This document shows, piece after piece, positions 25,391 to 28,198 of a DNA stretch of 64,000 nt. The notes under the pieces are model-generated. The model saw nothing but the letters and a program-made list of their open reading frames with translations. It did no database searches and was not told the origin of the DNA. Positions within the stretch are counted from its first letter, which is position 1. Each line of letters opens with the position of its first letter. Position numbers and translations under genes: made by a program. This stretch comes from Alicyclobacillus sp. SP_1 (lineage in GTDB: Bacteria; Bacillota; Bacilli; Alicyclobacillales; Alicyclobacillaceae): NCBI RefSeq assembly GCF_024706985.1, contig NZ_JAMCCX010000028.1, positions 62,001 to 126,000 of the forward strand, given 5' to 3'.

Positions 25391-25879
25391 ATGCAGAAGT
25401 TGTCATTGACTGGGCAGTCCAAACATTCGACGGATGAACAACTCCGAGGGTTGTCGGTCTTGTTCGTCGATGGGGATGACGTGTTCATCGATAATGGAGC
25501 CATTCACGGTAAAAGTCGATTGGAAACAGGGATTAAATTTGTAAAAGACAAGTCGGACGTTCCTAATGGTCGGACTATCCTCGGATTGTGGCTGACGCTT
25601 CATCGTTTTCCGGAGGGTCAAGGACTGTACGGAGCGATGCCGTTTGAATTGGTGATTGATGACAAAGCCGGTCTTGGATACAAAAATCTAGCCGTACAGG
25701 TGAACGGAATGGATAAAGCGGTTCGCGGTCAGGTCGAGGTCTCGGCACTTTCACCAGAACAGAAGCAAAAGATTCTCGACTACTTGCGCGGGGTGCGCTC
25801 AGATTTGTGGGATAACGCTGCGCCCGATTTTCGAACGGCTTTTGCACCGGATGCAGCCATCAAGGAGGGAGATAGCTAG
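25391..25879 (+). CDS. ywhD: YwhD family protein
   Basis: A 162-aa protein of the Bacillales YwhD family, recognised from LFVDGDDVFIDNGAIHGKS and GIKFVKDKSDVPNG. Its function is not established. GAGGTGG at 25379-25385 suits the ATG at 25391 better than the GTG at 25382. The stop is immediately followed by a TTG start for the decarboxylase, with the ribosome site of the latter inside the ywhD end. In Bacillus subtilis ywhD lies near polyamine genes, and here it also adjoins one. Confidence 0.82.
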   Translation: MQKLSLTGQSKHSTDEQLRGLSVLFVDGDDVFIDNGAIHGKSRLETGIKFVKDKSDVPNGRTILGLWLTLHRFPEGQGLYGAMPFELVIDDKAGLGYKNLAVQVNGMDKAVRGQVEVSALSPEQKQKILDYLRGVRSDLWDNAAPDFRTAFAPDAAIKEGDS

Positions 25880-25880
25880 A

Positions 25881-27350
25881 TTGAACCAAGACGCCACTCC
25901 GCTGTTCGATATGCTGTTGCGGCATGCCGACCGTGAACCAATACAATTCCACATCCCAGCGCACAAACGCGGTCGCGGGATGGACACGAGATTTCGCACG
26001 TTTATTGGTGACAATGCTCTCAGTTTGGACCTTGTCAACATCGCGCCGCTTGATGATCTGCATCACCCAACAGGAGCCATTAAGCATGCGGAGGAATTGG
26101 CTGCGCACGCGTTTGGAGCAGATGTGACCCTGTTTTCCGTTCAAGGCACAAGTACAGCCATCATGACGATGGTTCTCGCGACCGTCGGTCCAGACGACGT
26201 CATTCTTGTCCCGCGAAATGTTCACAAGTCGGTGATGACTGCGATTATCCTCGCGGGGGCTAGGCCAGTTTTCTTAAATCCTGAGCTTGATTCCGCCTTT
26301 GGCATCGCGCATGGGCTTTCTCTGGAAACCGTCTCGTCCGCTCTTTCTCAACATCCTGAGGCCAAGGCACTCGTGGTCATCAATCCGACATACTTTGGGG
26401 TCTCGGCCGATCTCGCTGGAATCGTCGAACTGGCTCATAACCATGGGGTGGCCGTGTTGGTGGACGAAGCACATGGGGTTCACACTGCATTTCATGAGGC
26501 ACTGCCGCTGTCCGCAATGCAGGCGGGCGCAGACATGGCGGCCACGAGCGTTCACAAATTGGGTGGGAGCATGACCGGATCGAGCATCTTAAACATTCAA
26601 GGAGGTATCGTTGACGCGCGCCATGCGCAGGTCGTCCTAAGCATGTTGACCACCACGTCAACCTCCTACTTATTGCTTGCATCTCTTGATGTTGCGAGAC
26701 GCGAACTGGCGCTATCAGGACATGAACATCTGGAAAAAGCTATCACTTTGGCTAATCGGGCCAGGCAAGAAATAAACTGCATCCCCGGGCTGAGTTGTTT
26801 GGGACCAGAGCATTTGCACAGCACTGCGACGTTCGCGTTCGATCCGACGAAGTTGACGGTATCTGTAAAATCCTTGGGGCTGACGGGATACGACGTAGAG
26901 CGGATGCTGCGCGAAGAACACAATATTGAAGTTGAGTTGAGCGACCTGTACAATATTCTGTGTATTGTTTCATGGGGCGACGAGTGGTGGCAACTCGAGA
27001 AGCTCGTACACGCCCTGTCGGAAGTGGCGAAGTCGTGCGTGGTTGTCTCGCATCATACGGACGAAAAAAATGTGCAATTGCCGCCGAAGACAGAGTTGCT
27101 CATGGCACCTCGGGACGCATTCTACGCACGCACCGAAGTGGTTCCCATTGCGGAGTCGGTGGGACGCATCATCGCTGAGATGATTATGGTTTATCCACCC
27201 GGCATTCCAATTTTAATGCCGGGCGAGAAAATTACGGCGGAGAGTATTGACTACATTGAGACCAATCTCCGAGCGGGGTTGCCTGTGCAAGGACCAGATG
27301 ACGCGGAAATTCGATTTCTAAAAGTTGTTCGGGAGGGATATTGTGGCTGA
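25881..27350 (+). CDS. speA: Orn/Lys/Arg decarboxylase family protein (SpeA-like)
   Basis: A 489-aa fold-type I PLP decarboxylase of the group including Bacillus SpeA (arginine decarboxylase). FHIPAHKRGRGMD near the N-terminus, VDEAHGVH for the PLP aspartate, and SVHKLGGSMTGSS with the PLP lysine are all diagnostic. A C-terminal Orn/Lys/Arg decarboxylase domain ends in PPGIPILMPGE. The start is TTG 25881 after AAGGAGGGA. It probably makes agmatine for polyamine synthesis; lysine decarboxylation cannot be excluded. The stop overlaps the bcp start by 8 bp. Confidence 0.87.
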   Translation: MNQDATPLFDMLLRHADREPIQFHIPAHKRGRGMDTRFRTFIGDNALSLDLVNIAPLDDLHHPTGAIKHAEELAAHAFGADVTLFSVQGTSTAIMTMVLATVGPDDVILVPRNVHKSVMTAIILAGARPVFLNPELDSAFGIAHGLSLETVSSALSQHPEAKALVVINPTYFGVSADLAGIVELAHNHGVAVLVDEAHGVHTAFHEALPLSAMQAGADMAATSVHKLGGSMTGSSILNIQGGIVDARHAQVVLSMLTTTSTSYLLLASLDVARRELALSGHEHLEKAITLANRARQEINCIPGLSCLGPEHLHSTATFAFDPTKLTVSVKSLGLTGYDVERMLREEHNIEVELSDLYNILCIVSWGDEWWQLEKLVHALSEVAKSCVVVSHHTDEKNVQLPPKTELLMAPRDAFYARTEVVPIAESVGRIIAEMIMVYPPGIPILMPGEKITAESIDYIETNLRAGLPVQGPDDAEIRFLKVVREGYCG

Positions 27351-27819
27351 ATTGACTGTAGGTGTAGAAGCTCCTTCTTTCACGTTACCGACTCAAAACG
27401 GAGACCATGTGACGCTGTCCATGCATCGTGGACAAGTTGTCGTTCTTTTCTTCTATCCCAAAGACGACACACCTGGTTGAACTAAGGAAGCCTGTGCGTT
27501 CCGAGATCTCAGCGCGGAATTTGCCCAGGCACATGCCGTCGTGTACGGCATTTCTAGAGACACGGTCCAGTCGCACCAGAAGTTTGCATCGAAGTATCAC
27601 TTGAACATGCCTCTCTTGTCCGATCCCGATGGTACCGTCTGCGACACGTACGGTGTACTTAAAGAGAAAAACATGTACGGGAAAGTGTCTGTTGGCATTG
27701 AACGCACAACGTATGTGATTGATCAGTCCGGCAAAATTGCAGAGATTTTTCACAAGGTAAAAGTGGACGGACATGCGGAAGCGGTCTTGGATGTTGTCAA
27801 GAGAATAGCGGGTGTGTAG
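27343..27819 (+). CDS. bcp: BCP-type peroxiredoxin with in-frame TGA at the peroxidatic position (possible selenoprotein)
   Basis: Reading from the GTG at 27343 (GGGAGGG, 5 nt spacing), the frame is colinear with thioredoxin-dependent Bcp peroxiredoxins for 158 codons. The single break is TGA at codon 46 (27478-27480), in the context YPKDDTPG-TGA-TKEAC. This is exactly where the peroxidatic Cys of the PGCT motif belongs. The resolving Cys51 is present and the rest of the fold (VYGISRDTVQSHQKF, PLLSDPDGTV, ERTTYVIDQSG) is intact. Selenocysteine at this site is known in other bacterial peroxiredoxins. A hairpin at the right distance follows. A conventional caller would annotate only the 3' fragment from 27541, or a pseudogene. 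Nonsense mutation remains possible. Confidence 0.8.
27494..27524 (+). promoter_or_regulatory. Candidate bacterial SECIS hairpin
   Basis: Core stem TTCCG (27499-27503) pairs with CGGAA (27515-27519), closing an 11-nt loop AGATCTCAGCG that starts 24 nt after the TGA and has G as its second base. Weak lower pairs (G-C, wobble pairs, one mismatch) extend it to 27494-27524. These values fit the published bacterial SECIS pattern: loop 16-37 nt after TGA, with G among the first two loop bases. The stem is short, so support is moderate. Confidence 0.45.
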
Positions 27820-27841: not shown

Positions 27842-28198
27842 ATGTTGACACTCACAGACAATGCAGCCGATAAAGTGCGCGCGCTGCTTCAAGAACGGGA
27901 TGGATATGGGGAAGATTCTCTGCGACTTTTTGTGAAGCCGGGCGGTTGTACCGGATTTTCTTACGGAATGTCTTTGGACAGTAAGAAAGACGGGGACAGC
28001 GTCTATGAATTGAAAGGTGTCTCCATTGTGGTGGACGAGGAGAGTATGGAGCTGTTAGATGGCTCCGAAATCGATTTTGTCGACGACTTGACGGGGCAGG
28101 GCTTCAAAATCAATAATCCGAATGCGACGTCCATGTGTGGGTGCGGGTCGAGTTTTCGGACAGCGACCAAAGCAGGGCAACCGGGGTCCTGTGACTAG
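27842..28198 (+). CDS. HesB/IscA-family iron-sulfur assembly protein
   Basis: A 118-aa A-type carrier with the three conserved cysteines: Cys36 (PGGCTGFSYGM) and Cys99/Cys101 (MCGCGSSF). Such proteins accept Fe-S clusters or iron and pass them to apoproteins. The C-terminus has a short extra tail ending in a further cysteine. GAGGTGA precedes the ATG, 22 bp after the bcp stop, so both are on one transcript ending at the hairpin at 28313. Confidence 0.9.
   Translation: MLTLTDNAADKVRALLQERDGYGEDSLRLFVKPGGCTGFSYGMSLDSKKDGDSVYELKGVSIVVDEESMELLDGSEIDFVDDLTGQGFKINNPNATSMCGCGSSFRTATKAGQPGSCD

Follow-up and report, generated by a model that had tools for sequence, protein, structure and literature searches.

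A gene for a peroxiredoxin of the Bcp/PrxQ type in the genome of Alicyclobacillus sp. SP_1 contains an in-frame TGA at the codon of its peroxidatic residue, and it is very probably a functional selenoprotein gene, with selenocysteine (Sec, U) in place of the catalytic cysteine. We infer the incorporation of Sec from the reading frame and its TGA codon, the genes for the Sec machinery in the same assembly, and the recurrence of TGA at codon 46 in related genomes, all of which were observed directly. The window, which is the whole stretch of 64,000 nucleotides that was analyzed, contains the following features at this locus.

25842–27350, plus strand: upstream syntenic neighbor, presumably an Orn/Lys/Arg-type decarboxylase, as the initial annotation also named it; its stop codon is the TGA at 27348–27350, inside the start of bcp
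27331–27337, plus strand: putative ribosome-binding site GGGAGGG, recognized from the sequence, 5 nt ahead of the GTG start
27343–27819, plus strand: bcp, PrxQ-type thioredoxin-dependent thiol peroxidase of 158 residues, with predicted Sec at residue 46
27478–27480, plus strand: in-frame TGA, codon 46, replacing the peroxidatic Cys (YPKDDTPG-U-TKEAC)
27490–27530, plus strand: candidate bacterial SECIS hairpin, with the apical loop about 23–24 nt past the UGA and a G as its first or second base
27493–27495, plus strand: TGT codon of Cys51, the candidate resolving Cys, five residues past U46
27842–28198, plus strand: downstream syntenic neighbor, a small protein that we take to be IscA/HesB-like

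When the TGA is read as U, positions 27343–27819 encode 158 residues and end with the terminator TAG. The only internal stop is U46, flanked by the letters CCTGGT TGA ACTAAG, and the 157 other codons are open. The gene starts with the GTG at 27343, and its start overlaps the 3' end of the decarboxylase gene. Reading the codon as Sec restores a gene that would otherwise be cut at codon 45 under translation table 11. The initial annotation had described a TGA at the peroxidatic codon of an otherwise undamaged Bcp frame, with a ribosome site at the end of the decarboxylase gene, and both the sequence and the protein profiles agree with this description.

The window protein is a member of the thioredoxin-dependent thiol peroxidases according to profile NF006960 (151.7 bits, cut-off 140) and of the Pfam family AhpC-TSA (PF00578; 2.2e-42, 144.3 bits, cut-off 26). 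It lies outside the PrxU family as defined by NF040737 peroxi_PrxU, for which it scores 45.5 bits against a cut-off of 270. Solved Bcp chains match the window protein with a best value of 2.8e-40 and are colinear with it over residues 9–154. The Cys-form Bcp/PrxQ chains 5iox and 5iph (bacterioferritin comigratory protein), presumably from Xanthomonas, are colinear with the window protein, which has Sec for their Cys at position 46. The active-site motif PxxxTxxC is present as PxxxTxxU, in the form P-KDD-T-PG-U; the Sec version of the motif is named in part of a review (PMC13188914).

The machinery for Sec insertion is encoded in the same genome, the assembly of which is a draft of 3.40 Mb in 105 contigs with a completeness of 99.98%. 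It contains a tRNA-Sec (64 bits) with the anticodon tca (UCA), SelA (544 bits, cut-off 268), SelB (375 bits, cut-off 242), and SelD (392 bits, cut-off 125), which itself has one in-frame TGA near the N-terminus (...KAG-U-GCK...). The initial annotation had made its selenocysteine reading dependent on the presence of selABCD, and this reading is supported by the machinery and by the codon-46 TGA of the relatives. Formate dehydrogenase alpha subunit FdhA was matched in the genome, but it has no TGA and was rejected as a Sec enzyme. The flag of one TGA on EF-Tu resulted from the gene's own stop codon, as the open reading frame is undamaged and has its end within the matched stretch.

Two further genes of the AhpC-TSA family in this genome have a TGA in the column aligned to codon 46.

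G000:C17:170496-170945, minus strand: L052, second Sec peroxiredoxin candidate, with the TGA in DWTPVU
G000:C72:2532-2810, minus strand: L053, third Sec candidate, AhpC-like (nearest to AhpC), with DFTFVU-PTE

L052 is above no NCBIfam cut-off, and the fold of its post-UGA stretch is strong against the synonymous-codon null described below (z −3.1). L053 reaches 139 bits in the NF040737 profile, which is nearer than the window protein and still below the cut-off of 270. L053 and its five relatives (all six sequences fetched) have in common a predicted hairpin of 6–7 bp with a GGUC loop 17 nt past the UGA. The stem contains compensatory changes, and one of its positions is occupied by A-U, U-A, G-C, and G-U pairs. 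These hairpins, as read from the sequences, provide evidence that Sec insertion may well work in the L053 group.

The in-frame TGA aligns with the conserved redox Cys of homologs in family, order, and phylum sets. A search of 59 genomes of the order found the gene at 1e-30 in 56 of them. The initial annotation had proposed a comparison of this codon among relatives, and codon 46 is TGA in 18 of the 56 genomes and TGC or TGT in 38. SelB and/or tRNA-Sec were found in 17 of the 18 TGA genomes versus 11 of the 38 Cys genomes (p 6e-6, with relatedness ignored). SelB is present in 28 of the 59 genomes, and the machinery is thus scattered through the order. The exception among the TGA genomes, G451 (88% complete), was searched for SelB and tRNA-Sec and yielded neither. 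The initial annotation had not expected a Sec peroxiredoxin in this context; this is borne out for the nearest clade, the other 16 genomes of which have Cys, but not for the order, in which Sec-Bcp is frequent (18/56).

Of 41 family genomes searched, 40 have a Bcp ortholog, with TGA at codon 46 in seven and TGC or TGT in 33. The 41st genome (G031, 72% complete) gave distant matches only, the best at 7.9e-10. Counting tRNA-Sec above 60 bits gave 13 genomes, for all of which ARAGORN also reports a tRNA-Sec (tca), and all seven TGA genomes are among them (Fisher 9e-5). Matches barely above the Rfam cut-off (in G028, G030, and G033, and second ones in G024 and G025) are tRNA-Ser according to ARAGORN and were not counted. 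The 99%-complete draft of G024 has the UGA-containing bcp (L048) and a tRNA-Sec, and none of SelA, SelB, and SelD scored over the cut-offs there, which may reflect either a gap in the assembly or a Sec trait in decay. Of the 40 family loci, 38 have the decarboxylase gene next to bcp, and all 40 have the IscA-like gene together with a further syntenic gene, presumably of the HD-domain type. Loci of a second family of the order have a decarboxylase match in 16 of 16 cases and an IscA-like match in nine of 16. As a separate observation, G032:C1:4337845-4338774 encodes a SelD with an in-frame TGA in a two-contig genome with no tRNA-Sec, SelA, or SelB at the cut-offs used, and G018, G029, and G039 each contain two SelD genes that score above the cut-off, every one with an in-frame TGA.

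Wider searches gave matches at 1e-30 in 71 of 398 genomes of a phylum sample. Besides that of the window, 12 matches were flagged as containing TGA, and in all 12 it is at codon 46. Among the best 80 of at least 573 relatives in a species collection, four have TGA, including that of Ferroacidibacillus organovorans SLC66 (L171), a genus of the same order as the window's genome. The class of G087 (four genomes) provided just two matches, both already known from the other searches, and the 489 matching plasmid records all have identities below 60%.

The candidate SECIS hairpin of the window has a minimum free energy of −17.7 kcal/mol (z −1.04) and, taken alone, is not significant (p 0.20) against a null in which the protein is kept, synonymous codons are redrawn, and the stretch 3' of codon 46 is folded. 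As a SECIS, this sequence is suggestive only. Against the same null, 23 Sec-Bcps have a median z of −1.17, with seven under 0.05, versus −0.11 and six for 39 of the 115 Cys-Bcps (p 5e-4); the raw fold energies of the same 23 and 39 genes do not differ (p 0.28). The six distinct Sec rows of the family form a consensus hairpin of −13.1 kcal/mol; when six Cys rows were drawn 1000 times, one draw equalled it. With the window's row left out, the consensus reaches −16.4 kcal/mol and was equalled by none of 1000. The window gene breaks six of the 17 pairs of its relatives' hairpin and folds in another register; L019 breaks four of the 17 pairs of the family Sec consensus. The Cys gene L021 folds much like the window gene, and no structure emerged when all 23 Sec-Bcps were folded to a consensus. 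A loose rule for bacterial SECIS elements includes a stem of at least 5, a loop start at 16–37 nt, and a G as the first or second base of the loop. It was abandoned, as 23 of the 33 Cys genes of the family passed it along with 20 of 23 Sec-Bcps.

The weak hairpin of the gene itself and the TGA genomes G024 and G451, which are short of machinery, speak against the Sec reading. If codon 46 had been mutated by chance very recently, the gene would be a pseudogene for a dead enzyme, and its frame would be equally intact. The single stop codon, the weakness of the SECIS candidate, and the use of TGA as a stop in the neighboring gene are all consistent with such a mutation. However, it is highly improbable, given that the genome has the complete Sec machinery and carries TGA in two more peroxiredoxin genes, and that 17 further genomes in the order also have TGA at codon 46. 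The position of the stop codon also argues against it. With Cys at codon 46, a total of 54 single-base changes would create a stop in the gene, ten of them a TGA, and one the TGA at codon 46. The chance of hitting this position is about 1 in 54 over all stops and 1 in 10 among the TGA routes, and the value of 1 in 158 given in the initial annotation was too rare. The strength of the case for Sec comes from the machinery and the relatives, and not from the positional chance.

An assembly or sequencing error that conceals a true TGC or TGT is less probable still. The draft state of the assembly with its 105 contigs and the TGT in the congener would allow for an error, but TGA recurs at codon 46 in other assemblies, and two other peroxiredoxin genes of the same genome carry TGA too. 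The lowest probability belongs to a reading of UGA as something other than Sec, through near-cognate readthrough or as Trp, or to a short product restarting at the GTG at 27541. An open reading frame of 92 residues does begin at this GTG, inside bcp, but its product would be without the active site. The presence of SelB and of a tRNA-Sec with the UCA anticodon, and the termination of the adjacent gene by UGA, argue against non-Sec decoding. The stop codon of the decarboxylase gene is only about 130 bases upstream of codon 46, so that, by the Sec reading, UGA would serve as a stop and as a Sec codon within this distance.

Cys51 of the window protein occupies the position five residues past U46, which we take to be that of the resolving Cys in the CxxxxC arrangement of E. 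coli-type Bcp. The chains 5iox and 5iph have FCAK or FSAK where the window protein has FASK, and the Cys of FCAK is presumably a second resolving place in such Bcps. Therefore, this second place is empty in the window protein and only C51 is left. Because the window protein keeps both U46 and C51, a selenenylsulfide cycle with thioredoxin is its likely mechanism. SelD would make selenophosphate, with which SelA would turn Ser-tRNA-Sec into Sec-tRNA-Sec. SelB, held by the hairpin just past the UGA, would bring the Sec-tRNA-Sec to codon 46. In the finished enzyme, the selenolate would reduce the peroxide and become selenenic acid, which Cys51 would resolve as a selenenylsulfide, and thioredoxin would reduce the selenenylsulfide.

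With all sets pooled and L171 dropped as a duplicate of G439, Cys51 is kept in three of 33 Sec-Bcps versus 74 of 120 Cys-Bcps (Fisher 3e-8, with relatedness ignored). It is missing from 30 and 46 of them, respectively, and a resolving Cys at this position is thus not general among Cys-Bcps. The family set has Cys51 in one of seven Sec and 30 of 33 Cys forms, and the phylum set in none of 12 Sec forms and five of the six Cys forms included from 61 Cys matches. In the second family of the order, all 16 proteins (11 Sec, five Cys) are without C51, and in the named contigs (best 80 of at least 573 relatives, L171 included), it is present in two of four Sec and 39 of 76 Cys forms. The two Cys51-keeping Sec-Bcps among these best 80 come from Acidobacteriales and Latescibacterota MAGs. 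The association of Sec with the loss of Cys51 is absent from two of the four sets, and lineage accounts for part of it. Tests on independent pairs lean on average toward Sec with C51 loss, but two usable pairs in a tree of 80 Bcps and four in a tree of flanking proteins are too few to reach 0.05. Among the 18 Sec-Bcps of the order, Cys51 is kept by that of the window alone. In each of the other six family Sec-Bcps, Cys100 is the sole cysteine that accompanies U46.

The history of codon 46 was approached through a tree of flanking proteins that covers 49 of 56 loci; seven were dropped for missing flanking matches, namely two Sec rows and the complete set of five Cys rows from the second family, all of them without C51 in the case of the Cys rows. 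In this tree, the window's genome groups with its congener G027 (100/100), and both group with a genus of 15 genomes (99/98). The window's gene is the only Sec form in this clade of 17 genomes. G027 has TGT at codon 46, and tRNA-Sec, SelA, SelB, and SelD gave no match over the cut-offs in its genome. Parsimony on the flanking tree gives five changes at codon 46, without their direction. Three Cys-Bcps without the resolving Cys, L063 and L065 (in G017 and G016) and L066 (in G034), have K or V at position 51 and adjoin the Sec-Bcps of G024–G026 in the flanking tree (95/82); they could be Sec-to-Cys reversions.

As the congener and the 15-genome sister group all have Cys, the history is most simply explained by a Cys-to-Sec switch within the window's genus, which is much less certain than Sec itself. 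A retained Cys51 in the only Sec form of the clade is what would be expected of a young switch. We tentatively speculate that the window's Sec-Bcp may have been caught soon after the switch, and that Sec-Bcps then tend to lose the resolving Cys, turning into enzymes with a single Sec. The retention of C51 and of a hairpin in its own register, and the Cys form of a congener in which Sec machinery was not found, are behind this speculation. A recent switch is opposed by the tree of 80 Bcps (of 138, with one in four of the Cys rows of L111–L190 retained), which joins the window gene to the Sec-Bcps of G038/G039 (97/78, unstarred). A tree of 46 Bcps does not join them. Trees of Bcp alone leave 33 of 77 (80-Bcp) and 16 of 43 (46-Bcp) inner branches open for timing the switch.

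A less likely but plausible alternative is that Sec is ancestral in the clade, with separate changes to Cys and losses of the sel genes in the congener and in the sister group of 15 genomes. The joining to G038/G039 and the machinery scattered through the order, which may therefore be old, are in agreement with an ancestral Sec. AU tests on the 46-Bcp tree reject none of three placements: a single Sec clade of the seven family rows (p 0.26), the window gene with G038/G039 (p 0.29), and, against an ancestral Sec, the window gene with its congener G027 (p 0.29). Against an ancestral Sec, the all-Cys neighbors in the flanking tree would make an extra change necessary, and the window gene keeps the C51 that 17 of the 18 Sec-Bcps of the order are without.

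Sec peroxiredoxins are known elsewhere, as the initial annotation had stated. COG1225 (Bcp) with the motif TxxU is listed as a selenoprotein family in a table of PMC9312934, and the relevant part of PMC1088965 gives 43 COG1225 Sec peroxiredoxins in a Sargasso Sea set. Under the name "Prx", the parts considered of PMC1794560 report 12 selenoproteins and five Cys-to-Sec events, and those of PMC5029168 report 91 selenoproteins in 78 organisms; the 2026 review PMC13188914 covers Sec "Prx" too. According to a portion of PMC7409299, the acidophile Sulfobacillus thermotolerans up-regulates a Sec peroxiredoxin, PrxU. The window protein resembles the published Sec-Bcp, as far as described in these parts of the sources, in family, Sec position, PxxxTxxU motif, and replacement of the peroxidatic Cys by Sec. 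It differs from them in belonging to an order that includes Ferroacidibacillus, in keeping Cys51, and in having a Cys-form congener in whose genome Sec machinery was not found. Judged by titles and abstracts, no literature was found that joins selenocysteine with Alicyclobacillus or Alicyclobacillaceae, and next to nothing on Sec peroxiredoxins with a resolving residue. PrxU of Eubacterium acidaminophilum is reportedly a peroxiredoxin with a catalytic Sec and, by the title of the reference, is alike in this respect.

The finding of a very probable Sec-Bcp is real, ordinary in kind, and adds to an already-known family. Its interest lies in the possible youth of the switch and in the pattern of the resolving Cys. 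The genus provides a Sec/Cys pair at one locus, and some Sec forms have the resolving Cys while others have lost or never had it. Such comparisons could show what a peroxiredoxin gains from Sec, and whether Sec removes the need for a resolving Cys.
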